A stretch of 46,933 nucleotides of DNA, taken from a virus. The number at the start of each line of letters is the position of its first letter. Positions within the stretch are counted from its first letter, which is position 1. Positions 15,807-43,220 of the stretch are shown one piece after another. The stretch is taken from the IMG/VR virus record IMGVR_UViG_3300032278_000018, positions 1 to 46,933 of that record; one strand, written 5' to 3'. The notes beneath the pieces are model-generated. The model saw nothing but the letters and a program-made list of their open reading frames with translations, ran no database searches and had not been told where the DNA came from. The position numbers and the translations under genes were made by a program.

Positions 15807-15817
15807 ATAGACACTTT

Positions 15818-16093: not shown

Positions 16094-16102
16094 ATATTTG
16101 AG

Positions 16103-16164: not shown

Positions 16165-16194
16165 ATCTAATTATTTAAAGAGAGGAATAACAAT

Positions 16195-16938: not shown

Positions 16939-17136
16939 GTGAAAGAACGATTTATTGTATTTAAACTAATACTTGAAATAAAACGTAGAAACTCAGGTAG
17001 TTTCAGTTACTTACAGTTATTTAAATTAGCCTTGGCAACATTATCAAGAGAGTTGGATTGGATGAATCAAATAGATGAGACAGAACAAACAGATTTAAGA
17101 TTTCATACCTCATTTACAGAAGGAGCACAAGCATGA
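16939..17136 (+). CDS. small helical protein (GTG start)
   Basis: The start chosen is GTG 16939, which has AAAGGAGAG directly upstream; the in-frame ATG 16921 lies over the previous stop and lacks a ribosome site. The 65-residue product is alpha-helical (ERFIVFKLILEIKRRNSG, then QLFKLALATLSRELDWM) with an acidic C-terminus. It overlaps the AAA+ gene by 4 bases (ATGA), so the two are translationally coupled and may work together. No family was recognised. Confidence 0.58.
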   Translation: MKERFIVFKLILEIKRRNSGSFSYLQLFKLALATLSRELDWMNQIDETEQTDLRFHTSFTEGAQA

Positions 17137-18182: not shown

Positions 18183-20413
18183 CACAAACAGATCTATTTG
18201 ATAAAACAGAAGAACTAGTAGTAGGTGCATCATATAGCCCGTGGTGGAAAAAATGGTATGAAAAGAAGAGTACTGGTAGGAAAACTAAAAATAAGGGTTT
18301 ATCCAGTATGTGGGATCAATATACTCCACAGTATGGCAATAGAAAGAAAGCAGAGAAATATTTCAAGATATTTGTTAATACTAACAATGTTCTTAAAATA
18401 TTAGATCCGTTAATAAAACATAGATTAAAAGTGGATAGTGTTGGAAATTATTCGCATAGGTCTCATAATTCTGGTAGAGTAGCAGGATATGCTAACAGAA
18501 ATACTAAAGTTATTACATTAACGGAAGGGATTTTAAGATTGCCAAATGCAGATCCAGCTATAGGAGTAGCAATACATGAAAAATTACATTTAATGCATAC
18601 TCCTGAGGTATCAGAATGGTCTGATCAGATTATGGAAAAGATATCTCCGCCCAAACAAACAAGAGCTGAGAGAGCAAAAAGTAGAGATACTGGTGTAATT
18701 GAAGAATCAAAAGAGATGCTTATGAAATCTATTTGGTGGCAATTGCATAATTTACTTGAAGATGAACGTATTGAGAGTAGATTGCATGAGAATTGTCCTG
18801 GATATGTAGCTTTTGTTGTAGCTGCAAAGGATCATTTAATAGGTAAATCATTTGAAGAAATGAAAATAATGGATTATGGCGAAACACAAAGTGATAGACT
18901 TATCTATGCTGTTATGTTATATATCCGACATAAAAAATCACTTCAAATAATGATTGAAGCTTGGCCCTGGTTAAAAGATAAGCTTCTTAGAATGAAACAT
19001 AATCTAGATGAATGTTTATCTGCAGCTAGAGAAAATAACTTAACTGCATATAAATGGTTTTCTCAAGAAGTCTTTTCTGATCTTATTAAAGAACTTACTA
19101 ATTTACCTGAAAATGAAGGGGATTTTGCTAATCTTTCAAATAAAGTTGTGGCTGATCCTTCTAGAGGTAGAATTAAAGATATGATCAAAGACTTAATGAA
19201 AAGATTAAGTGGAGAAGATACAGATAGTCAATATAGAAGTGAAGAAGAAGATGAATTAGCTATTGTTAGATCAATAATTGATAGAAATCGTGTTCAAGAT
19301 AGTATTGGTAATATCATTGCACCTCCATCTGATCCACAAGTATCAACCAGGACAAATAATACACTTAAACAAATAGCAAATGAAGCTGGTTATGATATGA
19401 CTAATGGTGAATATCATTCAGTACAGACTCTTAAAAGAGATATGAATGATCCAAATGGTAAAAAGTATCCACCATTGCCTTCAAGAAAATCTCTACAATC
19501 ATCAATGGTTAAACTCAAAGATGAGGATATGAATTATGTAGATATCAAAAAGGCAATTCAAAAACAAACTCAAGGTGGAGTAGGTGGATGGTCTGATGAT
19601 CCATTAATGGATACTATTGTATTAAGTCCTACCTCTGAAATAACAGATGAAAATAAGACTAAATATGCTAATATAGTAACTCAGAACAGTGGCATTATCG
19701 GCAAATTAAAACAAGCTATACAATTCAATGAGAATATTGCTGATATGGATATCAAAAACCAAATCAAAGGTTATATTGATAGAAAGAAACTACATAAAAT
19801 TCCTATTGGAGATAATAAAATCTTTAAAAGGACTATTAAGAAAAATAAAAACAGTCTTTGTGTAGGGATTCTTGCTGATGCATCTGGTAGTATGTCTGGT
19901 AGCATGGAAATAGTATCATTAGTATCTATAATATTCTATGAAGCTTTGATACAATCAAATGATACTAAATTATGTGTAATGTCACATACTGCTGATTTAT
20001 TAAATCAAGCTGCTACTATAATAACAGAGTATTATGTTGAGGGAAATGATAATAGTACAGCAATGGCTAATATGAAATCAACAGGATGTAATAGAGACCA
20101 TGTAGCTATTAGTTATATGGCAGACAAGCTTAATGAAGTAGCTTTACCTGAATCTAAAAAGATAATCTTTATTATATGTGATGGTAGACCAGCTGCACGT
20201 GGTTATGTTGATGAAGATCATGGACTATTATGTGTAAGAGAGACAGTAAATCAGCTAAAACAGGAAGGTATTGCGATTATAGCTTTAGGTGTAGGTAATT
20301 ATATTAAGGAATATCAATTAGAATCTATGTATGATCACAGTATTATGGTAAAGGATATAAGAGAATTACCTAAAATGGTAACTACCATAGCTGAGAAAAT
20401 AGCTCTGACATAA
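18179..20413 (+). CDS. metallopeptidase-VWA partner of the AAA+ ATPase (CobT/DUF2201-like)
   Basis: The 744-residue protein has an N-terminal zincin-like domain with HEKLH (133-137) and a following helix containing LEDERIESRLHE, which may supply the third metal ligand. Residues about 330-480 are acidic and poorly ordered. The C-terminal VWA domain has an intact MIDAS: D567-A-S569-G-S571, and a later ICDGRP strand. Zincin plus VWA encoded after a MoxR ATPase is a known pairing in cellular genomes (DUF2201-type); the ATPase is thought to act on targets tethered by the VWA domain. The strong operon coupling here supports a two-protein machine; its phage function is not known. Confidence 0.82.
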   Translation: MTQTDLFDKTEELVVGASYSPWWKKWYEKKSTGRKTKNKGLSSMWDQYTPQYGNRKKAEKYFKIFVNTNNVLKILDPLIKHRLKVDSVGNYSHRSHNSGRVAGYANRNTKVITLTEGILRLPNADPAIGVAIHEKLHLMHTPEVSEWSDQIMEKISPPKQTRAERAKSRDTGVIEESKEMLMKSIWWQLHNLLEDERIESRLHENCPGYVAFVVAAKDHLIGKSFEEMKIMDYGETQSDRLIYAVMLYIRHKKSLQIMIEAWPWLKDKLLRMKHNLDECLSAARENNLTAYKWFSQEVFSDLIKELTNLPENEGDFANLSNKVVADPSRGRIKDMIKDLMKRLSGEDTDSQYRSEEEDELAIVRSIIDRNRVQDSIGNIIAPPSDPQVSTRTNNTLKQIANEAGYDMTNGEYHSVQTLKRDMNDPNGKKYPPLPSRKSLQSSMVKLKDEDMNYVDIKKAIQKQTQGGVGGWSDDPLMDTIVLSPTSEITDENKTKYANIVTQNSGIIGKLKQAIQFNENIADMDIKNQIKGYIDRKKLHKIPIGDNKIFKRTIKKNKNSLCVGILADASGSMSGSMEIVSLVSIIFYEALIQSNDTKLCVMSHTADLLNQAATIITEYYVEGNDNSTAMANMKSTGCNRDHVAISYMADKLNEVALPESKKIIFIICDGRPAARGYVDEDHGLLCVRETVNQLKQEGIAIIALGVGNYIKEYQLESMYDHSIMVKDIRELPKMVTTIAEKIALT

Positions 20414-26393: not shown

Positions 26394-29300
26394 TTAATAT
26401 ATACTTGGATACTTAGTCTCAGTTGACATAGGATAAGGCGTGTCCGTGGCCGTTATCGGCTTTTCCCGCCTAAAATACTTAGTAGCACCGCGTTGGAACT
26501 GATGTAAAGGCACTCCAACTAATCTTTCAGTCGCCATAACAGGATTATAGATCAAACCATGCTCTGGTTTAAACATATCTCTTGCCATCCTACCAAATGG
26601 GAACCAAGTCCATACATGATAAGAAGCAAACCTATCCCAATCTTTGGATAGCATAGATTTAATAGGTGCTAAGGCATATCTAGCTACAGGCGGGGCAAAC
26701 ATCTGAGCTGGCCCCATACCAAAGAAAGCTCTTTCTTTTTCTTTATCAGAACCAAAGAACCATCCAGCTAAGTCTTCAAAGTATTGATAAGGCTGAGGAA
26801 GTGTTGCCTCGAACATAGAAGCTGGGAATATAGTAGCAAGGGAGTACATAAATAGATCAGCAGTAACCATATTCTGTAGCCTCTTATACTCTGGAGTCCC
26901 AGGATCATACCCCACTATCTTAGCTCGTCTTATTAATTCCTTGCGAAATCTAATAGAGTTCCACGACCAAAGCTGAAACCTTGCAAAGATACGACCAAGG
27001 TTTGTCCTTGCAAACGCTGGCCTATTGGCGTTATTGTATAAGAACTGAGTTCCATAGACACCTTGGTTAGCCATTTTAATTAACCAAGGATGTTCAAAAT
27101 CCATCACAAATCCATTGGCTTCTAATGCATCTCTGGAATTGATATAATGAGCAAGAAAAGCCTGCTTCCTTAATTTTCTTTCTGATACCCTCATAAACCA
27201 TGCAGCTTTATTGAAAACTTCCTTAGTCACGCCATTTCTTTGGAATATTTCAAACACTGTTAGATCATCAGACTCTGGTTCTTTTCTAATCTGTTGTAAC
27301 GATTCTCTAATAGACTTTCTAAGCTTAGGATCTTTCCATGCACCGGTAAGCCTAGCTTCTGAAACAATCCATGATTCAACAGCACCCACACTTTCAGTCC
27401 AATCAGACCAATCCTGACGTGTCTTAAACTTGGGGTTGACATAGTTAGCAAGATACTTAATAGAAAGAGAGTTCTTCCAAGGTTCAAACCCAGCATTGAT
27501 AATAGTATTAGTGCTACCACCATACATATTGTTAGCCAGTGATTTGCTATGTGCAAGTAAGGTTAGCATTTCCCATTTCGCTTCCAAGTTAGACAGATGT
27601 GCTAACTGTCTATGTAATAACCTAGACTTCTCTTTTGCTAAGCCCTTATCACCATCAAAATATTTCTTAGCAATCCTACCTACAACTTCTTTTTCAAAGG
27701 CTTCGTCACTAAACCAATAATAAGGAGTCATCTTAACAGGAAGCTTATCTGCATCTGTTAAGAACGCTCTTGGAAACGTACTGCCATACCCCAAATTATC
27801 TCTATTATAAAGCTTCATAAATCTTGCCCACTGCCTGGTGTGCTCACCCATAGCTTTGGTATTTTCAAATCTTTTTACTAACCTATATGAAATAGCAGAC
27901 GCTAAACTATTGTAACGTGCTGTAATAATCTGACTAGCATACCTCTCAAGAGCATCCCAGTTTCTTTGCCATCCTGGTAAAGGGCCATCTTCTCTAGAGC
28001 CACGTCTAAGAACATGTCCAGGCCTTGAGTGTAACCCAAGTAATGAAAAATCTCTTTCAGAGATTTCATCAGACATAATAGCTTCTGCATGTGCTTCACC
28101 CAAACCAAGATCATTTAGCTTTTCTTCTGCCATGATAATCTTATGCCTATATTCAGCCTCAGCTAATTTAGTTTCATCAGCACCCTCTTTAGCCAACCGC
28201 TCAAGTCTCTCTTTCAGAACACGATTTGCTACTTTCTTACCCCATCCTCCATGAGGAAAGAACTCACTGAAAGCAACTTTTCCTATACCTCTAAACCCAG
28301 GGTTCTGAGAAACGGAACCATCTTCAGCTGAAACTATAATGTCACCCTTGCCTGTGATCCTAGTTTCATCACCACCCTTCCACATCTCTTTAAACTTAAT
28401 TCTTAATTCGGTAGGCATCTCCCTAACATCAACTATATCTTTTCTCCAATTAAGCACTTTACCATCAGTAGATTTAATACCCTCTTTAGTTAGTCTTGAA
28501 GCAATATCTATAATCTCATTGTTTTTTATATTCAGCATGTCAACACGCATCTCATTTAATATAATATCAAATGAAAGCTCTAGCTGTTGTTCAAGTGGAA
28601 TAATATATGGTTTAGCACCTACATCCTGTTCTCTAGCTAACTTCCTTAAAGTTTTAGATACGTCTATTTCCTTACCATATTTAGTATTGTTCCAAACAAA
28701 TTCTTTCTCAGAAAATTCTCTATTACTTACATGTACTTTGTAAAAAGACTCAAACCAATCAGAAACCCTATCATTCATAACATCGCGAAGCTCTTCTGCC
28801 CTTATCTTCTGCTGCTCACCTTCGAGAGTAATAGTATACTCTTTCCCAGCAAACTCTTTATTCCATATCTTCTCAGCCTTTTCCCATTCCTTTTCGTACA
28901 GTCTATTTTGGTCATTCTCAAACTCATCCTTACCCCTGTTACGCTCTCTGTACGCTATAATATTATCCATAAATCTTGACTGATCAATATCTTTAATAGT
29001 ATCTAAGGGTTCTCTTACAGAAGCAAGGTCTTGTAATCCTTCCTCATATTTTCTAGGCTCACCCTCTGGACTAGTTCTATGCACAATTCTATTGATCTCT
29101 ACCTGTTTCCATTTATCAGCAGTAGTCCAGAACTGATGCATCCTACCAAAGTGACTCATTGGTACAGCAACCTGTTTAAATACAGGGCCAGAAGGAGTGA
29201 CGACAGGGCCTTCCATCCAGAATGGAGACATGTCATAACCTAAATTCCTACGCCCTATGCTCTCAGGCCACATCATAAAATGCCACCACTTAACAGGAGC

Positions 29301-32300
29301 ACCATCAGGCATTTTACCTGTCTTAATAAAAGAACGGAGAGCATTCTTAGGAGTGAAACCTTTAAATGAATTGATAAAGACTCTTAAATCTTGCTTGGTA
29401 GCTATTCTTGGCGATGTGCCAAAGACTCCAAAATTCATTAAAGTACCCTCAAACATCTCCTGAAAGTTTTCTCTCAATTGAGGATACATCTGGACTATAT
29501 CCTGGAGGTCACTATACAATTGTCTCTCTTCCTTGCTCATCTTGCTAGCATCTACATTCTCAGCATCTTTAATATGATTACGCCAGAAATGATCGGCATA
29601 CTCTGCTAATTTATTAGCTTGGTTAGTATCACTTGTTCTTGGAACAGCCCTATCCAATGCTGGGGACTCTACTGGATCTGATCTTAATATAATCCGTTGC
29701 ATTTCTGTATCAGATAGCTTTTTACCTGTTAGCTCATGTAGTCCTTTGTAAGTATCAAGCCACTTCTTAACTGAAGTCCGTGGGAGGACATCTGTACCAA
29801 AAGAAAATGCATCTAATCCAGAATTATGATAATCACCCTTAATACTAGATATTTTATCCTGTTCTCTATTCATATTATTAGTAATTGTATCATAGTCCTT
29901 CTGATAATCCTTAGTACCACCCTCTAATAGATCACGCTTGCTTATAAGAGCCTGAATATTCTTCTCATGCAAAGAAACCTTCTTATGCATATCAGCAACG
30001 GAGAATGGATGTCTTCTCAGGCTAGACAATAAGAAAGCATCATATAATTCTTGTTGAGCTTTTGGAAGACCCTCTCTATACGATCTCATGTTACCTCTTA
30101 ACTCGGAATTAGTAACATACGCAGGCATGTTTACTCTCTCGTGCAAGGCGACTGCTCTCTTAACATTTATATTATTATAATATGACATCTTATGAGCCTG
30201 AGCCTGATTAAGAATATCACCAGCAAGGGCATGGAAACTTTCTATATCTCCACCATGTTCAGAAAACGCTTTTCTATATGCACCAGACACTACCAATATA
30301 GATGCTCTATCCGCACTATCCTGTGAAACAAAATCTCTAAGCTTAGCTCTGCCCTCTGGAGTACTCATAAGAGTCTTAAATGTTTTATCATCCCAGAATT
30401 TTTCTTGAGTTATAATCTTCTCACGAAATAACATACTCAAAACATCTGGATTTTGATCAAGTATTTTATTGAACTGTCTTCCAAACTTTTGGTATTCTTT
30501 ATTATTAAAGAAATGCCTACCTCTTTGATACTCATCACTCACTTTTAATATATTAACAAGTTCTTCAGATACTACTTTACCCCATACACCAGGGATCTCT
30601 ACATCTCTATCGGTAAGATACCTTACTTCAGTAGAAAGCCTATCTGAAATATCATTCATACTCCATGCTCTTCCCTCATTCCAATTCCTACTTGCTATTA
30701 GATTATCCATCCTTGTAAGTCTACCATATATAGTATCATATACACCAGCCATGGCTTTATTGCTGAGTATATCACCATATACTTTGCCCTTACTATCGTA
30801 AACAATAGCACCTCTAAATGCCTTACTTATTAATAGATCTATTAACTGATGTCTGCTAAGCATACCAGCATAATCCCCTGCATCAGCTGCAAAGTTCAAA
30901 GCATCTCGTGCATAGTATCTAAATTCTTCGCCATTATCTTTGGAAGCTTGCCACTTAACATAGAGTTTATCAGCTTTAATAGGTTCTTTCTTTCCCTTTA
31001 TCCTTCTTGCGTTAATACTAGCCAATGTTTCAGGAGATAATTCTTCAACCCACTCACCACCTTTCTTTGAATTAACAAAAGAAAACAATGAATGGATACG
31101 CCTTCTGGCGTTTGCAGCAACACCCAATAATTTATTACCAGCACGCGACCCCATGGAAACTTCCCATAAAGTTAAAGGATCAAACATACCAGGAACACCC
31201 TTCTGCTCTTCTCTTAATTCTTTAATATTAAAGTCCTCTAGATTAGTTTTTACATCTCTAAGGATACCCTTCTTATCCACCCATTCGTTTCTATTGTTTC
31301 TAATAGCTTTCATGAACCCCCTGTCCAACCCATGGTAAAAGAATGCAGAGTCACTATCAAGATCAGCACCACCAGAAGCTATCATGTCTTTATTGTGAAT
31401 AATCATACCAGCCCCTTGCCTACCAGTAAAGCCCTTAAACTTTAAAGATCTCATACCAGAAATAGAATCTGATGGAACACGAATAATGCCAAAAGTAAGT
31501 TGTTCTTCCAGGTCTGCTAGCTTAGCAGGGTCTCTCTTCTCTAAATCTTTTCTTACTCCCTGATAATGCTTCCACGCTGACTCTAAACTCATGCTCTTGC
31601 CTTCATATGTGATCTTAAACTTTTTAAGAGCATCATTGAAATAAAATTCACCTGGCTTCAAGTCCAGTCTCCTCATTAACCATGGATCAAAAGGGTTTAG
31701 AAATGCCTTACCACTCGAAGGCATAATAGGTCTTATAGCTTTATTGACTAGGTAATTTCTTAAGACAGTATCAGTTAATTTTTTAGTAGGCTTAAACTCT
31801 ATCATGGACGGAGATCTACCACCTACTTGTAGTATTCTATCAGCAGAGCTATAAAATTCATCCAACATTTTCTGCTCAGCAACTCTCTGCGCTACATCAA
31901 ACTCTACTATAGTCTCACTATCTTGATCTAATAACCCTCTCTTGCCTAGCTTTAACATGTGATCCCATAATTTTCTATACAAAGGGCTATCAGAGACAGT
32001 AGTCTTACCCTCTTTACCACCAGTAACAATAGCCATAATAATATTATGATCTATCTTATCTACGTCTATACTCTCAGCAAGCTTCTCTAGTTTGGCTATC
32101 TCCTCAGAAGTAACATTCTTTCCAGCTGCTTCTAACTCAAGAAACTTTTGAGCACGTTGATTATTAACTGGTTCACCCCTTACGGATGCAAGTAAGGTAT
32201 CAGTATAGATTCTATCAATAATCTTAGGATCAATTTGTTCTGCGAATAAATTAGTAAGCATCTGTCTGACTGCCATAACCTCTTTCATGGCCCCACCAAA

Positions 32301-35300
32301 TGTAGGATTATCATATACCTGCAAATTGAGAGTAACATCCTCAAGAGGAATCTTATATGTCTCTGGTGTCTTGACATATTTACCTGTAGACTCATTATAA
32401 TATCTCATCTCATACTTGTCTTTACCCCTCCTATGCAACTTCCAGTCATACTTTTCCCTCAACCCTAACTGCTTTACAGCAGTATTATATAATATTCCGT
32501 GCACAGGATCAGACATGCCTGCCATATGTGCAGACTCTGCCTTTCCAGCCCTGAAATAAGCATACTTACCTAAGATCATTCCACGATCTATTTCAGATGA
32601 ATGCATAAATCCTTTTAACATATTACCCTTAACAGGAAGGCCACCGTCCTCTATCATTCTATCAAAAAAGTCAGCACGTACTGTGAATACACCATCTAAA
32701 TGATGCTCAGCTAAGAAATTCTCAACAGCCTTAGTAACCTTACCACTCTTACTCTTTCTGTATCTCTTCATCATTATATTCTTTTTACCAGCAACATAGT
32801 TTCCTACGGTAGAGGGTGCAGAGTTCTGTATAATAATATTCATTGCTGGCCTACCATCTACAGACACACTAAGATCTGGTATATGATCTTGATACATATT
32901 TATATCAAGACTAGGCTCACCTGAATTAAGTATCTGCATACGTTTACTTAAAGAAACAGGATCAGAAAGAAACTTATCAGGGTTCTTTGCTATAACACCA
33001 ATGTCCTTAATCTTTTCCATTGTAAGCCTAGCGTGGATATTGGATACTACCATATGAGCATAAAGAGCTTCAGCCTGTTCTGCTGGCATCCCAACCTTCT
33101 CCATAAAAGAACTAAATACATTTCTATGCTTCTTATAATCAGAATGTGCCTTTACTTTTGGATTAGCTTTATTAATCCTAGACATATACTGTTCAGCAAT
33201 GGTTACAAAATTATCTCCAGGCCTACCCTGTACTAATTCAGCGTAGATCTGCTTATCTTGATCTTTTACGCCAGAAAAGAAGTATCTCCCTTTTGAAGCA
33301 GCTGCAGCAAATACCTCTGCGATCTCTCCAGATGGCATATTCATATCAAATATATTTTGTACAACACTTCTATCTCTATCGGGATCAACAACCTCGGTCT
33401 TATTCTCAAATCTTTCTACAATCCACTTCCATTGTCTACCAAAAACCTTATCAAGAAATGAATCTGGAGTCATTTTTAATACATTCTTACCAGACCCGTC
33501 TAAATCTCCAGACCGTTCCAACGATAGAGGTTCATTACTTTGTACAAAATGGCCTTCATTGAGACGAGTATTCTCAGCCGTTCTTACCCAGTAGCTTCTT
33601 AATCCCTGATACATCCTAGTATTACGATCAATTGCAACACTAAACTCAGAGGATATGTCTGCAAGGAAGCTTCCCCATCCTTCTTTTCCACCTGTTGAAA
33701 GATTGCTTTTAGCAATCTCTGATACTCTTTCTTTAACAAGTCCTCTATTAGGTATATTGGGATCAGTGCCAGCAACAATCTGCTCCACTATCATATCTAA
33801 AGGCCGAGCCAAATGTAGAGTAGTATCATGCTCGTTAATTACATCTGATGTTTGAATAGTCTCACTCTTTTCTGAGGTAGGGGGTTCGAGTATGGGTTCT
33901 TTAGCTTTACTAGGCTCAACCTCTATCTTAAATTCTTTATCTACATAGTCAGGATGATTCATTTGCTTGAGAGCATACTCCGTAGCTTCCTGCTCTATCT
34001 TAAGGGCCTTATCAGCAAAGAGATCTAACCCCTTTTCTGTCTTGGGATACTTACTCGCATGCCCTAAAGCCTGATGTCCCTCCTCATGCAACATAATAAA
34101 ATTCTCATAAGCAGTCTCTCCTCCTCGTTCTTCAAAGAACTTTCTTAAATCTTTAAGTCTTATATCCATATTGTTAAGCATAATCTTCTTTTGTTCAGAA
34201 GATGGCCCAAGCTCTCCTCTTAGATATGGATGATTAGCTTCATAATCCGCACGTATCATGTCTCTATCTAAGGATATTTCTCCCTTCTCAGCATTAAATG
34301 ACGCCAATCTAAAATCTTGACCAACTATTCTCCTTCTAACGGCATTCATATCAACATCAAGACCAGCATCTCTCAAAGCCATGGCGGTAATAGCTCCAGC
34401 CCGTGATAGTTTATTCTTATTTACCCAGCTACCAGCAAGAAGATCGGCTTGGTGTTCTATTTCTTTTTGAACTTCTGGCCTCATCTTGCTAAAGCCATCC
34501 AAATCTTCTGGAGACATAAGTTTTGAGGTTTGTCCTGACTGCCTGTAAGGCATCATAAACCTTAGAGCTGCCTCTTCTTTAGCAGGCATAGTCTTTGCTC
34601 CAAAGAATGCTCCTAGTAAATACTGATAAACTTGAAGTTCAAGGGGTTCGTCTTGTACTGTAGATGGCAAGCCCGTGACAATAGAACCTGCTAAGGCCCT
34701 CACGGTTGAGTTAGCTCTTCTAATAGTATTGGGATCAGATGACTTTAAAGCATTTTGTAAATTTACAACATTTCCTATTCCACCAAAGATACCTCCCATG
34801 GCTGCTCCACCAATGAATGCATCCATCATATGCTCAGCACCTTCTTGCCAGGTAGATGCAGCGGACGCTACCCCTAGATGTCCTGCATGCCTTAGCATTT
34901 GAGCCCCCACAGCGCCTTCCTCAAGGAACTTTATGGTACGACCTGCCACTATACCCTTACTAACACGCCCAACGCCTTCTAAGGTGAGATCAGCAGCTAA
35001 CATAGGAACAGATCTAAAAGACGTAAGAGCACCTGCTACCTTACTCACGTCTGCAGTCTGCTTAACAAGACCAGCAGATTTACCAGCTTTTGCGAGCATA
35101 CCTACACTTTTAGCACCTATACTACCTATTGTCCAAGGCCCAGGAAGCCATCCTACAAACCCTGCAAGATGTCCTACGTTACGTGCTATTGCTTCTGCTG
35201 TATTTTCTGGTGGGTCACCAACACTAAGTGTACTAAATCCAGAAGTAAATCCAGATACAAGCTGACCTACAGTACTGACTAAGTTAAAATCAGACTGAGG

Positions 35301-35429
35301 CATAGACCTTCTAAAGGGAACCCCAAAGTTATCAGAGTTCTTTTCTAGCTGATCTACTTCTTCTTCTGAGAAAAGTCCTGGATTGCTCTGGTATAGATCA
35401 TAAGCTAATCTAAATTGCTGTGGATTCAT
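26394..35429 (-). CDS. giant 3011-residue virion/ejection protein with RNAP-like DxDxD and zincin motifs
   Basis: Residues 1-330 hold hydrophobic, Gly/Ala-rich stretches that could enter membranes. A zincin-like site lies at HEEGH (448-452), with E481 in QEATEYA as possible third ligand. Around 1317-1360, RVPSDS leads to SGGADLDSDSAFF with D1356, D1358 and D1360. This context resembles the 'R-P-T...S-DFD-DK' region of giant crAss-type virion proteins, related to the NADFDGD loop of RNA polymerase beta-prime. Long helical, charged regions follow. The C-terminus (about 2650-3011; FARTNLGRIFARFQLWSWNS) looks like other podoviral ejection proteins. It ends the leftward internal-protein operon and overlaps the upstream stop (ATGA). 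Injection with DNA is likely; polymerase and protease activities are inference. Confidence 0.75.
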   Translation of the reverse strand: MNPQQFRLAYDLYQSNPGLFSEEEVDQLEKNSDNFGVPFRRSMPQSDFNLVSTVGQLVSGFTSGFSTLSVGDPPENTAEAIARNVGHLAGFVGWLPGPWTIGSIGAKSVGMLAKAGKSAGLVKQTADVSKVAGALTSFRSVPMLAADLTLEGVGRVSKGIVAGRTIKFLEEGAVGAQMLRHAGHLGVASAASTWQEGAEHMMDAFIGGAAMGGIFGGIGNVVNLQNALKSSDPNTIRRANSTVRALAGSIVTGLPSTVQDEPLELQVYQYLLGAFFGAKTMPAKEEAALRFMMPYRQSGQTSKLMSPEDLDGFSKMRPEVQKEIEHQADLLAGSWVNKNKLSRAGAITAMALRDAGLDVDMNAVRRRIVGQDFRLASFNAEKGEISLDRDMIRADYEANHPYLRGELGPSSEQKKIMLNNMDIRLKDLRKFFEERGGETAYENFIMLHEEGHQALGHASKYPKTEKGLDLFADKALKIEQEATEYALKQMNHPDYVDKEFKIEVEPSKAKEPILEPPTSEKSETIQTSDVINEHDTTLHLARPLDMIVEQIVAGTDPNIPNRGLVKERVSEIAKSNLSTGGKEGWGSFLADISSEFSVAIDRNTRMYQGLRSYWVRTAENTRLNEGHFVQSNEPLSLERSGDLDGSGKNVLKMTPDSFLDKVFGRQWKWIVERFENKTEVVDPDRDRSVVQNIFDMNMPSGEIAEVFAAAASKGRYFFSGVKDQDKQIYAELVQGRPGDNFVTIAEQYMSRINKANPKVKAHSDYKKHRNVFSSFMEKVGMPAEQAEALYAHMVVSNIHARLTMEKIKDIGVIAKNPDKFLSDPVSLSKRMQILNSGEPSLDINMYQDHIPDLSVSVDGRPAMNIIIQNSAPSTVGNYVAGKKNIMMKRYRKSKSGKVTKAVENFLAEHHLDGVFTVRADFFDRMIEDGGLPVKGNMLKGFMHSSEIDRGMILGKYAYFRAGKAESAHMAGMSDPVHGILYNTAVKQLGLREKYDWKLHRRGKDKYEMRYYNESTGKYVKTPETYKIPLEDVTLNLQVYDNPTFGGAMKEVMAVRQMLTNLFAEQIDPKIIDRIYTDTLLASVRGEPVNNQRAQKFLELEAAGKNVTSEEIAKLEKLAESIDVDKIDHNIIMAIVTGGKEGKTTVSDSPLYRKLWDHMLKLGKRGLLDQDSETIVEFDVAQRVAEQKMLDEFYSSADRILQVGGRSPSMIEFKPTKKLTDTVLRNYLVNKAIRPIMPSSGKAFLNPFDPWLMRRLDLKPGEFYFNDALKKFKITYEGKSMSLESAWKHYQGVRKDLEKRDPAKLADLEEQLTFGIIRVPSDSISGMRSLKFKGFTGRQGAGMIIHNKDMIASGGADLDSDSAFFYHGLDRGFMKAIRNNRNEWVDKKGILRDVKTNLEDFNIKELREEQKGVPGMFDPLTLWEVSMGSRAGNKLLGVAANARRRIHSLFSFVNSKKGGEWVEELSPETLASINARRIKGKKEPIKADKLYVKWQASKDNGEEFRYYARDALNFAADAGDYAGMLSRHQLIDLLISKAFRGAIVYDSKGKVYGDILSNKAMAGVYDTIYGRLTRMDNLIASRNWNEGRAWSMNDISDRLSTEVRYLTDRDVEIPGVWGKVVSEELVNILKVSDEYQRGRHFFNNKEYQKFGRQFNKILDQNPDVLSMLFREKIITQEKFWDDKTFKTLMSTPEGRAKLRDFVSQDSADRASILVVSGAYRKAFSEHGGDIESFHALAGDILNQAQAHKMSYYNNINVKRAVALHERVNMPAYVTNSELRGNMRSYREGLPKAQQELYDAFLLSSLRRHPFSVADMHKKVSLHEKNIQALISKRDLLEGGTKDYQKDYDTITNNMNREQDKISSIKGDYHNSGLDAFSFGTDVLPRTSVKKWLDTYKGLHELTGKKLSDTEMQRIILRSDPVESPALDRAVPRTSDTNQANKLAEYADHFWRNHIKDAENVDASKMSKEERQLYSDLQDIVQMYPQLRENFQEMFEGTLMNFGVFGTSPRIATKQDLRVFINSFKGFTPKNALRSFIKTGKMPDGAPVKWWHFMMWPESIGRRNLGYDMSPFWMEGPVVTPSGPVFKQVAVPMSHFGRMHQFWTTADKWKQVEINRIVHRTSPEGEPRKYEEGLQDLASVREPLDTIKDIDQSRFMDNIIAYRERNRGKDEFENDQNRLYEKEWEKAEKIWNKEFAGKEYTITLEGEQQKIRAEELRDVMNDRVSDWFESFYKVHVSNREFSEKEFVWNNTKYGKEIDVSKTLRKLAREQDVGAKPYIIPLEQQLELSFDIILNEMRVDMLNIKNNEIIDIASRLTKEGIKSTDGKVLNWRKDIVDVREMPTELRIKFKEMWKGGDETRITGKGDIIVSAEDGSVSQNPGFRGIGKVAFSEFFPHGGWGKKVANRVLKERLERLAKEGADETKLAEAEYRHKIIMAEEKLNDLGLGEAHAEAIMSDEISERDFSLLGLHSRPGHVLRRGSREDGPLPGWQRNWDALERYASQIITARYNSLASAISYRLVKRFENTKAMGEHTRQWARFMKLYNRDNLGYGSTFPRAFLTDADKLPVKMTPYYWFSDEAFEKEVVGRIAKKYFDGDKGLAKEKSRLLHRQLAHLSNLEAKWEMLTLLAHSKSLANNMYGGSTNTIINAGFEPWKNSLSIKYLANYVNPKFKTRQDWSDWTESVGAVESWIVSEARLTGAWKDPKLRKSIRESLQQIRKEPESDDLTVFEIFQRNGVTKEVFNKAAWFMRVSERKLRKQAFLAHYINSRDALEANGFVMDFEHPWLIKMANQGVYGTQFLYNNANRPAFARTNLGRIFARFQLWSWNSIRFRKELIRRAKIVGYDPGTPEYKRLQNMVTADLFMYSLATIFPASMFEATLPQPYQYFEDLAGWFFGSDKEKERAFFGMGPAQMFAPPVARYALAPIKSMLSKDWDRFASYHVWTWFPFGRMARDMFKPEHGLIYNPVMATERLVGVPLHQFQRGATKYFRREKPITATDTPYPMSTETKYPSIY

Positions 35430-36817
35430 TTAGCTTCAGCTGGCATTATTGTCGATTTTGCCATAGGAGCAAGCCAATCTCTTAATTCTACTAACTGCTG
35501 TATCATGTTCTTTCTACTGTCAACTCCCGAACCATATCTGCCCTTATAAGTCTCCATTCTTTGAATCTGGGTTTCTATTTGACCGTACATTAAAGGTGCA
35601 TTAAACCCAATTGTATTTCCAAACTCCATAATAAAAGTACCTGTCTTCTCAATATACCTTTCCATCTCTGCATCATTTTTTAGCTTTGTAGTATGTCTTG
35701 CCTCAGACCAAGCTTCTGAACGCCATCTTGCTCCTGGCATACTCTTTGGCTCTGGTATTGACGTGGGTGGATTAAGAACACCATGACTCATGACAGCCTC
35801 CCTCATCTCTATCTGATTGTTCTTCATCATAATCTCAAACTGGAAGTTGCTTTTATCCATTATATTGTTCAACGCATATAGACTTTCCATGCTTTGAAAA
35901 TTAGGATTTTCTTTAAACTTTGTAAGCATAGACCTAACTTTTGGATTCTGTGTCATTAAAGTAGGATCAGCACCCATTACAGCCATTTGAATCATAGGCA
36001 TCATCGTCTTTAAAAGATTCTGATCTTGTTTATCAATTAGATCAACATAAGCCATTTCATTTGCAAGCTCCAACCCATCTAAACTCTGGTAAAACTTATC
36101 TAAGTCTAGATTAAATTGTTTATCAGTAATACCAACTCTCTTATTCTCTACTGTAAGCTTTGCATCAAATGTTCTCTGGTCTTCTTTCAGCTGATCTTTC
36201 CACCGAGTTATCTGCGCATCATTGAAATGACGCTGATTTCCTGCTTGAACAGCCCAATGAGCAACCTGAGAACTTTGGAACTGACCTTGTTGAGCTATAT
36301 GAGCCGCATATGTTACCTCATGTTTCCCTCTTGAGGCTGCAGTCGATGCAAGAGCGTCAGCTTTCATCCATTCGATTCCACGAGGGCCTCCTTCAGCCCC
36401 ATACAAAGCCTCCATCTGAGTCCGTCTAAGCCCACCAGTCCCAAAATCATATTCAACTTGAGCTCTATATGCAATAGCCCTAATCATATTTGCTTCTGCT
36501 GTCTTACCTTGAGCCTCTAATGCTGACGCCTGAGTCTCCGAGTTCTTAACCATAACATTAATCTTCTGCTGCTCTAAAGAATCAGGGCCAATAAACTTTG
36601 CCTTCGCTACTTGAGTAGAGGTCTCAGCTGACATCCTTTCAATGGCAACACGAGCTTCCTTCACATTCTCAAGTTCTTGGGCTTGCAAACTTAATGAAGC
36701 TACCCTATAGTCTGCTATAGCCTGAGCAGTATCTGCTTCTGTGTCAGCTCTTTGCTGTGATATATTTAACTGCTGTGCTGAGGCTAACGACCTAGCAATC
36801 TCTGGTTTAGTTGGCAT
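35426..36817 (-). CDS. coiled-coil internal virion protein
   Basis: The 463-residue product is almost entirely helical, Ala/Gln/Glu-rich and without cysteine (QQRADTEADTAQAIADYRVA; SAETSTQVAKAKF). The C-terminal half is rich in Met and Asn (LLKTMMPMIQMAVMG). It lies directly upstream of the giant ejection protein, coupled by ATGA, and downstream of a Gly-rich protein. The trio of glycine-rich, coiled-coil and giant proteins parallels the ejection set gp14-gp15-gp16 of T7-like phages. Sequence identity to those is not claimed. Confidence 0.65.
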   Translation of the reverse strand: MPTKPEIARSLASAQQLNISQQRADTEADTAQAIADYRVASLSLQAQELENVKEARVAIERMSAETSTQVAKAKFIGPDSLEQQKINVMVKNSETQASALEAQGKTAEANMIRAIAYRAQVEYDFGTGGLRRTQMEALYGAEGGPRGIEWMKADALASTAASRGKHEVTYAAHIAQQGQFQSSQVAHWAVQAGNQRHFNDAQITRWKDQLKEDQRTFDAKLTVENKRVGITDKQFNLDLDKFYQSLDGLELANEMAYVDLIDKQDQNLLKTMMPMIQMAVMGADPTLMTQNPKVRSMLTKFKENPNFQSMESLYALNNIMDKSNFQFEIMMKNNQIEMREAVMSHGVLNPPTSIPEPKSMPGARWRSEAWSEARHTTKLKNDAEMERYIEKTGTFIMEFGNTIGFNAPLMYGQIETQIQRMETYKGRYGSGVDSRKNMIQQLVELRDWLAPMAKSTIMPAEAK

Positions 36818-36831
36818 AACTATAACTCCTA

Positions 36832-37716
36832 TTAATTTCCTAATGTATACTGATTATTTAATCCAAACCCACTTTGCCATTGATCTTGAATATTGGGTTG
36901 AAAACCACCCCATCCTCCAGTAACACCTATCCCACCTCTTCCTTTACCCATCCAACTCTGTGCCATACCAGACCCTAGACCTAGCATACCTCCATCAGAA
37001 TAAGCACCTCCGCCTTGACCAAAGTTAGAAAATCCCCCTCCACTTTGTCCATAGCCAGCACCCCCTCCTGCAAAGTTACCTCCAAATCCTTGAGACATAA
37101 ACCCACGTTGCTGCTGTAATGGCTGATAAGATGGAGACATTGACCCACCTCCTCCTTGCAATGGATTTTGTCCACCCCCGCCTGCACCTAGGAAAGCAGA
37201 GCCACCCATAAAAGCTGCTCCCTCTACCAGGCCAGAGATCATTGCTTGCTGACGCTCCATATTGGCATTCCTCATTTTATTTACATCCGTTGCCCTAGCA
37301 CCAGCTACGTTTGCTACTTGACCTCTCATCCCTGAACCTAATTGGAAAGCCCCATAAGCATCTTTTCTACCCTGACCTACCATATTAATAAGGCCCTGCT
37401 GCACCTCTCCACCCATACGAGCTCGTATTGCCTCAGACCTTTTATCTCCCATCCTTTGGCTACCACCAAATCTGAAAGCTCTTTCTGTAGCTTCACGCCC
37501 AGCAGCTGCTCCTGTATCCATAGAAGTACCAACCATCATACTACGTGCAGCACTATATGGGCCAGCACCAAGGTCGCCTGATAACAGGCCTTCACCATAT
37601 TGCTCAAGCGTACCAGCTGTACCTAATTGTGGTGAGACAGCATCATATGCATCACCCCACTCATCTTTGGTTTCACCTAAATCAGCCTGACTAAATACTG
37701 TATCCCAAAAACTCAT
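36832..37716 (-). CDS. glycine-rich internal virion protein
   Basis: The 294-residue protein has a helical N-terminal half (SAARSMMVGTSMDTGAAAGR; KRSEAIRARMGGEVQQGL). A short hydrophobic Gly/Ala stretch follows (GLVEGAAFMGGSAFLGAGGG), then a 110-residue low-complexity tail of Gly, Gln, Ser, Phe and Tyr. The hydrophobic segment could insert into a membrane, as the smallest T7 ejection protein does. Position in the ejection-protein cluster supports this; the Gly/Tyr/Gln tail is unusual and prion-like in composition. Confidence 0.62.
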   Translation of the reverse strand: MSFWDTVFSQADLGETKDEWGDAYDAVSPQLGTAGTLEQYGEGLLSGDLGAGPYSAARSMMVGTSMDTGAAAGREATERAFRFGGSQRMGDKRSEAIRARMGGEVQQGLINMVGQGRKDAYGAFQLGSGMRGQVANVAGARATDVNKMRNANMERQQAMISGLVEGAAFMGGSAFLGAGGGGQNPLQGGGGSMSPSYQPLQQQRGFMSQGFGGNFAGGGAGYGQSGGGFSNFGQGGGAYSDGGMLGLGSGMAQSWMGKGRGGIGVTGGWGGFQPNIQDQWQSGFGLNNQYTLGN

Positions 37717-37731
37717 AATATTGCTCCTTCG

Positions 37732-40059
37732 CTAGTTAGACTTTAAAGCCTCAACTTCTTGTTTAAGTTCCTTAACTGCATTGACAAGCAATGCTGTCAT
37801 TCTTCCATAGTACATAGAGGCATTTCCCTTAGAGTCTTCACCTGTTGCTTCAGGTATAACTTCTTTCACATCCTCTGCGATAAATCCCATTGCCCTTTCA
37901 CTGCCCATATCTTCTTGTAATTCTTCTTTCCAATCATAATAGATACCATCTAATAGCATTACTTTATCTAGTGCACTAGGGATAGTAGACATATTTTCTT
38001 TGTATTCCCTAGAAGAGCTAACGCTTAATAGACCAGCTGCACTTGACTGAACATCTCCACTACCCAAACTTTTAACATAGAAAGCACCCGCAGCTCCATT
38101 AGACGCAGGAGTTTTTATTTCCATACCTAGTCCGACAGATGCGGAAGTACCACTATACACTTCTAAGTTTCCAACATTTCGTCTAAAACCTGTACCAGCA
38201 TCAAGACCTATACCTAACCAAAGATATGCCTGACTTTGCATCTGTATATTGCCATTACTTTTCCAGTACTGGTGAATAGAACCATCATACATAACTCCGA
38301 AATTAAGAGGTTGAGCATCTCCCCCTCTAAAGATTTGCCAAGCTGCTCCTGCATTTGTATTGTGAGCTGGAGTACCATCGGTAGGGGCGTAAAAAATAAG
38401 ACCAGTAGTACCAGAAGTTGCACCTACAACACTTATCTTACCATTAGTGTGAAACTTCATCCTACCGTCAGCGAAAGTAGCCTCGCCAGTTGACGCTAAT
38501 ATAGCCTTGCCACTACCTATATTTATATCACCTGCGGTAATTGATCCCATATCAGCTGAGACTGCTTCTAGATTTGCTACACTTATCTTAGCTGCGGTCA
38601 CAGCATCAGCTGCTATCTCACTTGCAGTAATAGCGTTAGCCGCTATCTGATTAGCGGTCAAAGTATTGGCTGCTACTTCATCAGCAGTTATAGTCCCTGC
38701 GGCAACAACCGCAGCAGTAATGCTATTAAGAGCAATCTTGTCAGCACCATCAATAGTATTGGTAGCAATTTTTTCATTGTTAATAACAAGATTGCCAATA
38801 TTTGCAGAACTAATAGTAAGATTTGCTATCATACCAGCTGTAATTGATAGAGAAGAAATCTTACCTGCTGTTACAGCCCCATCTTCAATCTTACCAGAGG
38901 TAACAGCCGAGGATTGTATTGCTCCTGATGCAATAGAGTTAGTACCCATATTACCAGCCGTAATAGTATTGGAAGCTATCTCACTAGCGGTAACAGCGTT
39001 CTCTCCTATCTCACTAGCAGTGATAGTATTTGATGCTATATTACCAGCTGTTATAGTATTACTGGCAATCTCATCTGCTGTTATAGCATTGGTTCCAATT
39101 TCATCGGCTGTTATAGTATTGCTGGCAATATTCCCTGCTGTTATGGTATTACTAGCTATCTCGTCAGCTGTAACAGCGTTACTAGCAATCTCCCCTGCAG
39201 TGATAGTATTACTTCCAATCTGATCTGCCGTAATAGTATTATTAGCTATCTGAGTGGCTGTAATTGTTGCACTTGCTATATTTGCCGCAGCTATTGTAGC
39301 ACTACCTATGTTTGCACCTGTGATAGTGGCACTAGCTATATCTGTGCCAGTTATTGTAGCATCCTGTATCTGGGTAGCAGTAATAGTACCCGTTACAATA
39401 TTACCACCTGTAATAGTCGCTTCATCAATCATAGCTCCAGTAATCGCATCTTCAGATACAGTAATGGCACCATTGGATGCTATAGTAGCATGGCCTTGTA
39501 CGGTCTTATTGTCCCACGTATCTGTACCATCATAAATAAGTATCTGTCCTGAAGCTGGATTTTGAATATTAGTATCAGAAGCTGAGTTGATTTGGACATT
39601 ACCCCCAGTAAGTCCATCTACATATGTTTTAGTAGTGAGAGTATAATTATCAGCTGGAGTCGTACTAACACTAGAAGCTTGTTTAGGTTGTGCTGAGAAC
39701 TCAACCTGAGTTCCACTATTCTCGGTAATAGTAGCACCACTGCTAATAGTAATAGAATCTTTTACGACTAATTTAGATACTTCTTCTTCAGCTGAAGTAT
39801 CAGTCTCACTCGCTTTAGTAAGAAATAGCTCTCTCTGAGCCCATCCATCAGAGAACTTGCCTTCTATAAGATATTTATTAGTAGCAGTATCCCTTACTAG
39901 TCTCACATCACCACTATTACCCAATTGAGAACCACGATCCTCTGTAGCTTCTTCATTATTAACTGCATCTATAATCTGATTAATATCATCATAAATCTGA
40001 TTCCAGGCTCTTGTGTCTGTCTCAGTTCTTGGGGCTTTCTTCTTAGTGATAGGCATCAA
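37732..40059 (-). CDS. tail fibre with decapeptide repeats and S74 chaperone domain
   Basis: The 775-residue protein has three parts. The N-terminal attachment region (1-200) includes GQILIYDGTDTWDNKTVQGH. The shaft of about 29 decapeptides of type (N)TITA-(D/G/S)-x-I-A-S (about 204-494) suggests a trimeric beta-helix. After a receptor-binding region, the protein ends in a Peptidase_S74 intramolecular chaperone (about 680-775) with SSREYKENMS, YYDWKEE, MGFIAEDVKEVIPEA and NAVKELKQEVE. In that family a Ser/Lys pair cuts the chaperone off after trimer folding; the Ser (about 681-683) and Lys (687) are present. It overlaps the 1054-residue gene by 4 bases. Confidence 0.88.
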   Translation of the reverse strand: MMPITKKKAPRTETDTRAWNQIYDDINQIIDAVNNEEATEDRGSQLGNSGDVRLVRDTATNKYLIEGKFSDGWAQRELFLTKASETDTSAEEEVSKLVVKDSITISSGATITENSGTQVEFSAQPKQASSVSTTPADNYTLTTKTYVDGLTGGNVQINSASDTNIQNPASGQILIYDGTDTWDNKTVQGHATIASNGAITVSEDAITGAMIDEATITGGNIVTGTITATQIQDATITGTDIASATITGANIGSATIAAANIASATITATQIANNTITADQIGSNTITAGEIASNAVTADEIASNTITAGNIASNTITADEIGTNAITADEIASNTITAGNIASNTITASEIGENAVTASEIASNTITAGNMGTNSIASGAIQSSAVTSGKIEDGAVTAGKISSLSITAGMIANLTISSANIGNLVINNEKIATNTIDGADKIALNSITAAVVAAGTITADEVAANTLTANQIAANAITASEIAADAVTAAKISVANLEAVSADMGSITAGDINIGSGKAILASTGEATFADGRMKFHTNGKISVVGATSGTTGLIFYAPTDGTPAHNTNAGAAWQIFRGGDAQPLNFGVMYDGSIHQYWKSNGNIQMQSQAYLWLGIGLDAGTGFRRNVGNLEVYSGTSASVGLGMEIKTPASNGAAGAFYVKSLGSGDVQSSAAGLLSVSSSREYKENMSTIPSALDKVMLLDGIYYDWKEELQEDMGSERAMGFIAEDVKEVIPEATGEDSKGNASMYYGRMTALLVNAVKELKQEVEALKSN
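38577..39450 (-). repeat. coding 30-bp repeats in the tail-fibre shaft
   Basis: About 29 imperfect 30-base units encode the decapeptide shaft. Units such as NTITAGNIAS recur exactly, while others drift (SAVTSGKIED, LVINNEKIAT). The central block (about residues 230-390) is the most uniform, which points to growth by slippage or recombination within the gene. Such arrays are known to change fibre length between related phages. Confidence 0.8.
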
Positions 40060-43000
40060 TCCACCAATGTTGTCTGGTTGACAGGTAATCTTCTAAATAC
40101 AATACTTAAAGCATTCATCTCATCATCATAGCCCTGGTTCGCTGTTTCTCCACTCATGACCTCTATCGTAACATCTCTCTTCTTACGATCAAGACCACTA
40201 CCAGTAAATGTTATAGGGGTACTAGTATCAGCAGCTGAATAGCTTCCATCCTCAAATTTATACCTAACACTAGCTCCTCCTATCCAATGAATACCATATA
40301 ACATTTTCTTCTGCGTACTCACTCCCATATTAATTTTCTTAGTTCTATAAAACCATTTTCTAAAACCAGTACCTTTCATGAGCCATCTCATCTCACCTTC
40401 GTCATCTCCTTTTAGAAGCATCAAAACATACCCATCCTTGCCAGGAAGAACAAAACTTGTATAGCTTTCATCGGCTTCATCAGTTTTGTTATTAGTCATA
40501 TATAAATCCCATCTCTTTCTTGGGATATTATATGACCATATACCACTGAATATATTCCCCTGAACCCAAGACTGATGACTATCAGATGGAGCTAACTGAA
40601 CTGGAGATTCAAAGAAAACAAGTATGGAGTTTCTGACAGAATCAAAAGTGACAATAGGAGCTATATTAGTAGTAATCTTATTCTGCCATCCCAAACGATT
40701 GGAATCATCTCTTAGAATAGGCTCACCGATAGGCTTGGGATTACGACCATCATGTAAATAAATATTATTCTTATCAGCAAATGCCATACCATATTCAGTG
40801 ACTACATGACAATTCTGGTTCATACATCCTACGCCATCAAATGTATCCTCTATGTAAAACCCTTCAGGGTTTATACGATATGTAGTATTATCATCCCAAG
40901 CATAGATCCTTCCCTGGAAACTAGCAAGGGCCGTAGGCTTAGAAGGAAGTTTAAGATAATCGTCTAACCAATTAAACCTATCAAAATCCCCAGGTTGAGA
41001 CTTAAATAGATAGAGCTCTGCATGGTCTACATCTGGATGATAACAAAGACCAACAATGTGCTGACCAAAGATTTTAGTAGATAGCCCATAATTGACAATA
41101 GAGTTTTCTAATATTTCTGATACTCCAGTTCTGGCTTCGTACCCAGCACCGACTGCCCCCGAATCAATAATGCCAAACTGCCTATTATCGCTCATGGCTT
41201 TATAGTAAGGGTCGCTACCACTATTAACAAGTTTCCATTTATCGTCAAGATCTATAGATTTAACAAGTCTATAAAATGATGTTGGAACTGATGAGCCAAG
41301 AGACCTAGCCCTATAAATATTTACTCCACTAACACGCTTACCTATCTCACTAATATCTATCCTAATACCTACATTGATAGCATATTTTTCATCTCCAAGT
41401 TCTTGATAACTTATTATTTCTGACAATGGTGATTCTTGATACCCATCATATACATAACTAACTTTATAAAAATGAAACGTAGTTATATCATCTTGTCCTA
41501 TTGTCCCAGAATCTTCAATAGAAGAGAGCTCTATCGCTACACTACCCACTTCTTTTCTCGTTACAGCAGCTACATTGCCTGTACTTCTACTATAAGTAGT
41601 AGCAAATGTCCCACCAAGAACTTGAGAATGAAAAGATAGCATACTAAATGTATTAGTAGAAAGACCAGTAACTGCTACTGTAGCACTATACGTACCTGAA
41701 GGAGCACTACCTGTTCCTGCATCCCCCTCATGCCTAGCTCTCATAAACTTATTATCTGATGCTGTTAAAGGCCACCAATCAGTCACAGTACCTGAAGTAA
41801 CAGCTGCAAAATTGTCAAGCTTAATAACAACAAAAACAGTATTCACTCCATTAGTCCCAGCTTGGAACGACCCAAACATTCTTTCATCATCATCAGTAGC
41901 ATGTACCCAAGTATAAAGACCAGTACAATTTCTATTTAAAAACGCAGCTCCATCATCATAATCGCTAAAATACACAGCCCTGTTTGTAGAGTTTAAATTT
42001 AGATATGAAACCGCCACAGCATCTTTATCTAAAATAACAGCCATAACATAAGGAGCATGGGTAGAATTGGGAGTCTTTATAAGAGTTCCATTATTATTAA
42101 ATAGAAACATCACACTTTCCGACTCATCGTTCTTCCACCTACTCAAGCTTCTCTTAAATAGAGTAATACTAGGATCACCTATATATTGTCCTGTATCTGC
42201 TGTATTAGGATTTGAATCTGGCTGGACATCAAATTGCTTACTTGTTGGTACAAAGGACGATCCCGAAGAAAGAGATCCAGCAGCAAAATAGAATAGAAAT
42301 TTATCAGTTTGAGGTAATTGAGATGTTACTCTAGCCGTCCTGTAAGCAGCGAACCACATATGATTCCCAGTACCAACATCTGTGACTATCATATCAGATA
42401 TAACAGCACTGCTCATTAACCCAGTCCCAGTAGAATGCCATCCACCTATTGGATAGGACTCACTTACTTCAAGAGACGATTTTGCAACCTTATGAAGAGT
42501 ACCATAGGTGCCTATACCAGCATCAAACACAAATAAGTAGTCAGAATCGGGATGCTCACACATGGCGGTAGCTGTCGTAAATATATTAGGCCCTCTCAAT
42601 GTTACACCATTTTCAAGGCTACCATTGGTATACTTCCATACCCTTGATCCTTTCCATTCAATGATATATGAGTAAGTAGCATCAATAATATGCGAGTGAG
42701 CTTGAGGAACTGAGCCAGGTCTCTTTAGCTCTGCGTCCTGCACCTGAAGACTATCTTGATCTGCTGTTAATCCAAACTGTGCATGATCCACATACCCAAC
42801 CCACTTAGGTGCATCCGTTGCAGTATTTCCCAAACCAACATGAACTGCTCTATTATTAGATTGCATAGTTGCACCTGCGGATGGAGTAGGTGATATTGTT
42901 GTTGCGGAGGGAGTAATGCTAGTACCACTATGGAAATTTTCCCAAACCTGAATTTTCTTTACCCCTGATGCTAATCCAAAAGTAACCAAATCTTTTGTTC

Positions 43001-43220
43001 CATCACCCTTATCAAGCCATGAAGCACAATTATGATCTGTTACACCACCATCATTGGTTTGTGCGTCAGAATCATTAGGTATACCTTTGACTACACCATC
43101 CTCTGTCACACTATCAAGATTAAGAGAATAAGATGCCGCCTCTGGCGGTATGTCCCTAACGTCAGGAGTGGTCATTGTCCCTGAGTCAAATCTATTTAGT
43201 TCGTATAGTTCTTTAGGCAT
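40056..43220 (-). CDS. large beta-propeller-like tail/stabilisation protein
   Basis: The 1054-residue protein begins MPKELYELNRFDSGTMTTPD and continues with 'RDIPPEAASYSLNLDS', as seen in podoviral tail proteins that start with an instruction-like 'GI---PD-R-IP--A-----N' pattern. Repeated beta-blade-like segments follow (DYLFVFDAGIGTYGTLHKVA; SWNEN-free mid region; LASFQGRIYAWDDNTTYRIN; GMAFADKNNIYLHDGRNPKP). The 'FQGR-YAW--NTTYRI-PEG' motif recalls P22 gp10/T7 gp12-like tail proteins that seal the portal. The function as tail tube or stabilisation protein is inferred from those patterns and its place beside the fibre. Confidence 0.68.
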   Translation of the reverse strand: MPKELYELNRFDSGTMTTPDVRDIPPEAASYSLNLDSVTEDGVVKGIPNDSDAQTNDGGVTDHNCASWLDKGDGTKDLVTFGLASGVKKIQVWENFHSGTSITPSATTISPTPSAGATMQSNNRAVHVGLGNTATDAPKWVGYVDHAQFGLTADQDSLQVQDAELKRPGSVPQAHSHIIDATYSYIIEWKGSRVWKYTNGSLENGVTLRGPNIFTTATAMCEHPDSDYLFVFDAGIGTYGTLHKVAKSSLEVSESYPIGGWHSTGTGLMSSAVISDMIVTDVGTGNHMWFAAYRTARVTSQLPQTDKFLFYFAAGSLSSGSSFVPTSKQFDVQPDSNPNTADTGQYIGDPSITLFKRSLSRWKNDESESVMFLFNNNGTLIKTPNSTHAPYVMAVILDKDAVAVSYLNLNSTNRAVYFSDYDDGAAFLNRNCTGLYTWVHATDDDERMFGSFQAGTNGVNTVFVVIKLDNFAAVTSGTVTDWWPLTASDNKFMRARHEGDAGTGSAPSGTYSATVAVTGLSTNTFSMLSFHSQVLGGTFATTYSRSTGNVAAVTRKEVGSVAIELSSIEDSGTIGQDDITTFHFYKVSYVYDGYQESPLSEIISYQELGDEKYAINVGIRIDISEIGKRVSGVNIYRARSLGSSVPTSFYRLVKSIDLDDKWKLVNSGSDPYYKAMSDNRQFGIIDSGAVGAGYEARTGVSEILENSIVNYGLSTKIFGQHIVGLCYHPDVDHAELYLFKSQPGDFDRFNWLDDYLKLPSKPTALASFQGRIYAWDDNTTYRINPEGFYIEDTFDGVGCMNQNCHVVTEYGMAFADKNNIYLHDGRNPKPIGEPILRDDSNRLGWQNKITTNIAPIVTFDSVRNSILVFFESPVQLAPSDSHQSWVQGNIFSGIWSYNIPRKRWDLYMTNNKTDEADESYTSFVLPGKDGYVLMLLKGDDEGEMRWLMKGTGFRKWFYRTKKINMGVSTQKKMLYGIHWIGGASVRYKFEDGSYSAADTSTPITFTGSGLDRKKRDVTIEVMSGETANQGYDDEMNALSIVFRRLPVNQTTLVD

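Follow-up and report, generated by a model that had tools for sequence, protein, structure and literature searches.

A predicted two-barrel RNA polymerase in the middle of a giant protein of an uncultured phage lineage

The question raised by this locus is whether the 3011-residue protein encoded at the end of a phage late block contains an RNA polymerase and, if so, which genes it serves. The sequence analysed, hereafter the window, is the whole of IMG/VR record IMGVR_UViG_3300032278_000018 (46,933 bases), which derives from an uncultured bacterial virus; terminal repeats are absent from it and the record may be incomplete. Its leftward late block comprises terminase (10012-11502), portal (7701-9989), major head protein (5285-6661), a tail-fibre-like protein with a Peptidase_S74 domain (37732-40059), a GH108 lysozyme (46158-46703) and, as the last gene, that of the giant protein (26394-35429, minus strand, ATG start). 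The giant gene is convergent with a rightward block at 12.98-25.8 kb that consists of early and replication genes (MoxR-like AAA, VWA, AAA_24 and DnaB-like). The MoxR-like AAA ATPase and VWA-domain genes lie adjacent to each other (17133-20413, plus strand), and this pair is rarely common to other lineage members fetched. The record yielded no second RNA polymerase candidate, in agreement with an earlier note on this DNA: large ORFs are without an RNA polymerase match, and the pattern DxDxD recurs among other listed genes only in one 101-aa ORF.

The earlier note had also pointed to a putative catalytic motif in the giant protein, and its components were located in the 3011-aa ORF exactly as described. 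The signature R1317-V-P-S-D-S1322 (31464-31481, minus strand; R1317 codon at 31479-31481) lies upstream of a predicted metal-binding loop, D1356-x-D1358-x-D1360 (31350-31364, minus strand; codons at 31362-31364, 31356-31358 and 31350-31352, respectively). The loop reads DLDSD in the window protein, within GGADLDSD at residues 1353-1360, and both elements are conserved among homologues. The pattern DxDxD alone is not evidence, because 0.72 occurrences are expected by chance from the length and composition of the giant protein, and two are present (residues 682 and 1356).

The first homologue, L004, shares 26% identity with the giant protein in a blastp segment over the middle region and 57% around the motif, which there has the form RVPLDSTSG..LKFKGFTGRQG...GGADSDGDK. 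Separate scans detected 20 viral loci with the motif region and 61 with the C-terminal 400 residues. The alignment comprises 41 non-redundant members, with pairwise identities of 18-90% (median 32%). The three aspartates are invariant in all 41, together with R1317, P1319, G1333, F1334, G1354 and K939, so that homologues devoid of the triad, named in advance as contrary evidence, were not encountered. Nowhere among the 50-residue stretches that start between residues 301 and 2300 is conservation higher than in residues 1317-1366, and the family consensus is RVPMDSxSGAxxLKFxGFTG..G.G.LLHxRxMxALGGADLDGDKAF. As many as 29 of the 41 homologues came through the C-terminal scan, a search made independently of the motif; since the triad is kept in every one of these 29, its conservation is not produced by the search.

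Sequence searches in Pfam, PHROGs and PDB, with either the window protein or the 40-member alignment as query, gave no RNA polymerase at a reliable E-value. A match to PF05183 (RdRP) in one of 40 members, with E=0.006, is not significant after 40 scans, and the member that gave it was not found among 16 members checked. Profile comparison was done with crAss RNA polymerases, represented by phi14:2 gp66 and nine related crAss-group sequences (10 in all). In hhalign, the family profile matched this profile with a score of 49.3 (E=3.7e-4, 323 columns), in an alignment that ends with GGADLDGD placed on GSDFDID and has RVP on RIP, in register. As controls, the reversed profile scored 19.7 and 120 shuffled profiles had a mean of 15.3 and a maximum of 21.4, so the comparison proposed in the earlier note puts the motif in register at a score far above the shuffled level. 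In a second shuffled set (100), the decoys scored 21.9 or less with one exception at 133.5; this single decoy among 220 was treated as an edge artefact of the program, as its score came from 9 terminal columns of the profile. In single-sequence hhalign, the catalytic loop was the sole match in the 2180-aa phi14:2 protein. The comparison with single-sequence P23-45 gp96 was not in register, and part of P23-45 gp64 aligned in register on TGADYDGD with P=0.04 only. A deep-branching relative (L081:1-6945) carries the loop GGADKDIDS, between the form of the giant-protein family and the crAss form GSDFDIDK.

The region comprising residues 690-1790 (30060-33362, minus strand) was modelled by AlphaFold with a 40-sequence alignment, resulting in a pLDDT of 77.9 and a pTM of 0.76. 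Foldseek against PDB returned only two matches at E≤0.001, both of them two-barrel RNA polymerases: the phi14:2 virion RNA polymerase (6vr4, 1.6e-7) and QDE-1 (5fsw, 1.1e-5). Weaker matches among the 50 listed are also RNA polymerases, mainly cellular (bacterial and eukaryotic), and include the non-virion RNA polymerase of jumbo phage AR9 and gp62 of Thermus phage P74-26. In a viral library, the fold search disclosed crAss RNA polymerases and unnamed proteins (best E=4.7e-35). Superposed over the full length, the model agrees only loosely with its fold matches (TMq 0.32, rmsd 21 Å), which is not surprising for multi-domain proteins that share about 10% identity. The structure prediction called for earlier thus matches two-barrel RNA polymerases, and a non-barrel fold was not seen.

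Within this region, the predicted catalytic (beta-prime-like) double-psi barrel occupies residues 1235-1370 (31320-31727, minus strand), as indicated by profile match, model and conservation. A predicted partner (beta-like) double-psi barrel region precedes it at residues 905-1060 (32250-32717, minus strand), recognized by conservation and predicted strands; its order and lysines suggest that it is DPBB-B. The family pattern of this segment is DG.i..R.dV....n...GlP..G..nKSFIVS.....GALLGKYM, in which K939 is invariant and K955 at least 97% conserved, both in predicted strands; D912-G913 and K1055-Q1056 are also nearly invariant. In two-barrel RNA polymerases, the second barrel contributes two conserved lysines (PMC7824862). 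K939 and K955 are likely to be these basic residues of the partner barrel. After the catalytic barrel, the model has a long helix (residues 1418-1455, model helix 729-765; 31065-31178, minus strand), a candidate bridge helix.

Aspartate conservation in 41 of 41 homologues, fold matches, the crAss profile register and the two conserved lysines of the predicted partner region together strongly support the two-barrel RNA polymerase that the earlier note had suspected. We consider it highly probable that about residues 690-1790, the middle third of the giant protein, form a single-chain two-barrel DNA-dependent RNA polymerase, in which D1356, D1358 and D1360 would hold the catalytic magnesium ions. 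On the grounds of sequence and model, the predicted domain would belong to one superfamily with cellular RNA polymerase, QDE-1 and the polymerase of crAss-like phages.

Two other explanations of the loop itself have to be weighed against this. A DxDxD that arose by chance, or that binds calcium in some unrelated virion protein, would agree with the 0.72 expected occurrences and with sequence searches that name no RNA polymerase, but this view is hardly credible in view of a triad invariant across 41 homologues, a crAss profile match in register, and two-barrel RNA polymerases as the only PDB fold matches at E≤0.001. Alternatively, the window phage could carry a two-barrel descendant that is catalytically dead and now structural. 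Where most relatives have DLDGDK, the window protein indeed reads DLDSDS and so deviates from the consensus at G and K. However, the three aspartates and K939 are kept, the same positions vary in other family members (DLDADS, DKDADS, DLDIDS) and in the active crAss enzyme, whose loop is DFDID, and L001, with DNA about 91-95% identical to that of the window, has the loop motif unchanged. Loss of activity is accordingly improbable, and with such variation seen in relatives and in the active crAss enzyme, the window protein is expected, judging by its sequence, to be active.

We have also addressed the segments on both sides of the predicted polymerase. The N-terminal region (residues 1-300; 34530-35429, minus strand) is conserved in the family, and the C-terminal all-helical region (residues 2380-3005; 26415-28292, minus strand) strongly so. 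The model of the latter is of low confidence (pLDDT 63, pTM 0.49) and has no fold match in PDB; PHROG 11358, a giant protein of unknown function, matches this region in 32 of 40 members. The C-terminal helical region is probably the virion or ejection part. At about residue 448 (about 34070-34090, minus strand), the stretch HEEGHQALGH followed by EQEATEYA resembles an HExxH metallopeptidase; relatives are mostly gapped here, which points to an insertion specific to the lineage.

Upstream of the giant gene, two genes on the minus strand code for a 294-aa Gly/Ala-rich protein (36832-37716) and a 463-aa protein (35426-36817), the candidate first and second proteins of an ejection cassette that continues with the giant protein. 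Neither has a family match. In the relatives examined, one or more small proteins precede the giant gene, also without a convincing family match, and genes for a DnaB-like helicase and AAA_24 come after it, convergently. This gene order resembles ejection cassettes of short-tailed phages, such as 14-15-16 of T7 and that of N4. Further upstream, a 1054-aa protein (40056-43220, minus strand) has no family match; its relatives are present in 37 of the loci fetched, where they often precede the giant gene, and one of them weakly matches PHROG 511, ‘internal virion protein’ (E=9e-4).

Because of the resemblance to ejection cassettes, we propose that the giant protein would be made late, packed into the virion with the upstream partner proteins, and ejected along with phage DNA. 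Once inside the cell, the polymerase would transcribe the early genes of the rightward block (12.98-25.8 kb) ahead of all phage protein synthesis. Ejection and early transcription, which we infer from gene context, are probable. The proposal also presumes promoter choice by the polymerase; in the search for early promoters no repeated motif was seen, and sigma-70-like sites are no more numerous than in shuffles.

A genuine two-barrel RNA polymerase could instead be made late and used in the same cell, for late or middle genes or for replication priming, and not be ejected. Such use would be compatible with the evidence in so far as packaging and timing of the giant protein are deduced from gene context, and phage P23-45 has both virion and non-virion two-barrel polymerases (PMC10770324). 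Against it are the position of the gene, which closes the structural block and follows small proteins in the manner of an ejection cassette, and the fusion of the core to large conserved regions at both ends. Moreover, a polymerase made only late would be unable to start the early block, for which no other candidate was seen, although the host enzyme could do so. We regard use in the same cell as unlikely, while giving it real weight, and ejection of the polymerase as the preferred explanation.

The early block also contains a noncoding segment (15806-16165, plus strand) that folds far better than its shuffles (MFE -118.7, z=-5.7) and has no family match in Rfam. The loop of its core hairpin, TTGCCGTAATAAATCTAGAG, is found exactly in 20 IMG/VR contigs, some of them of the giant-protein lineage, and the flanking stem varies with pairing kept (AGAGG/CCTCT, AGGGG/CCCCT, ATAGG/CCTAT). 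This segment is a conserved phage RNA or DNA element, possibly a regulatory RNA.

A scan with the motif alignment revealed relatives of the giant protein on at least 245 IMG/VR contigs, a count that serves as a measure of abundance only, because it was selected on the motif. A Flavobacteriaceae metagenome bin includes one relative, on a contig of 5.3 kb; this may be contamination and is a weak hint of the host. The 50,697 records of INPHARED are without a match to the searched regions of the window protein or of a more typical relative, L045, and a tblastn search from the family to INPHARED, crAss phages included, gave no match either. A description of the family was not found in the open-access papers searched, an earlier listing of some members (e.g. 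in supplementary lists) being possible.

Membership in Crassvirales was rejected on the basis of terminase, portal and major head protein. In BLASTP, these have no detectable similarity to their phi14:2 counterparts, and they fall into other PHROGs (phrog_38, 156 and 1328 in the window vs 6681, 6547 and 11589 in phi14:2). The window terminase and portal resemble those of a variety of other phages, among which Vibrio and related marine phages predominate for the portal. Of the podovirus not obviously crAss-like suggested in the earlier note, the non-crAss part is confirmed by these three genes, and podovirus morphology is likely.

On balance, we favour a broader picture in which a large uncultured lineage, probably short-tailed and outside Crassvirales, ejects a two-barrel RNA polymerase in the middle of its largest ejection protein and transcribes during DNA entry. 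If so, this would be a further marriage of a two-barrel polymerase with an injected virion protein, beside the crAss-like and P23-45 cases, and it could explain how infection starts without host RNA polymerase. It would add a common environmental lineage, present on those IMG/VR contigs and unmatched in the phage records searched, for which the giant protein can serve as a marker gene in the absence of a cultured member in that collection. The family also offers highly divergent sequences with which to trace how the two-barrel fold arose.

There is experimental evidence for two-barrel polymerases within the virions of a crAss-like phage, a Thermus siphovirus and jumbo phages. The closest in fold is gp66 of phi14:2, a Cellulophaga phage of Crassvirales (PDB 6vr4; the 2180-aa protein annotated Phi14:2_gp077 in KC821624). 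As predicted for the window protein, it is a single-chain giant virion RNA polymerase; it is the best PDB fold match, and its R.P...GSDFDIDK loop is in register with RVP...GGADLDGDK of the family. The two differ in that identity is about 9% over the fold alignment, the window protein has 3011 residues with its own C-terminal helical region, and the phi14:2 genome has about 100 kb, compared to 47 kb of the window record and up to about 56 kb in relatives. QDE-1 and other eukaryotic RNA interference polymerases, as well as YonO-like phage polymerases, have two double-psi barrels in one chain, as predicted here, and QDE-1 is the second-best fold match; in contrast, they are not fused to a virion protein and the sequence signal is weak. 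The N4-type virion RNA polymerase of Schitoviridae, a roughly 3500-aa podovirus protein ejected to start early transcription, would work in the same way as proposed here, but has an unrelated, T7-like right-hand fold. An N4-type identity was rejected, since the model matches two-barrel enzymes and no T7-like match is among the fold matches listed.

In P23-45, a long-tailed Thermus siphovirus, gp96 holds an RNA polymerase within a tape-measure-fused giant virion protein that enters the cell; the polymerase, with a DFDGD loop, is at the N-terminus of this 5002-aa tape measure, and part of the protein suffices for activity (PMC10770324). As in the presumed virion protein of the window, the polymerase is embedded in a giant chain, although N-terminally there and mid-chain here, and gp96 also has a metallopeptidase domain, comparable to the HExxH-like stretch. 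No significant sequence match was found between gp96 and the window family, and the fold match of the P74-26 non-virion enzyme to the window model is weak. By analogy, gp96 demonstrates that such an arrangement, with an RNA polymerase carried within a giant protein that is injected, would be workable. The earlier expectation of something new or little described holds for the lineage and not for the kind of enzyme, preceded by phi14:2 gp66 and P23-45 gp96: the polymerase is of a known kind in a new lineage, comparable to phi14:2 gp66 and to the tape-measure fusion of P23-45.
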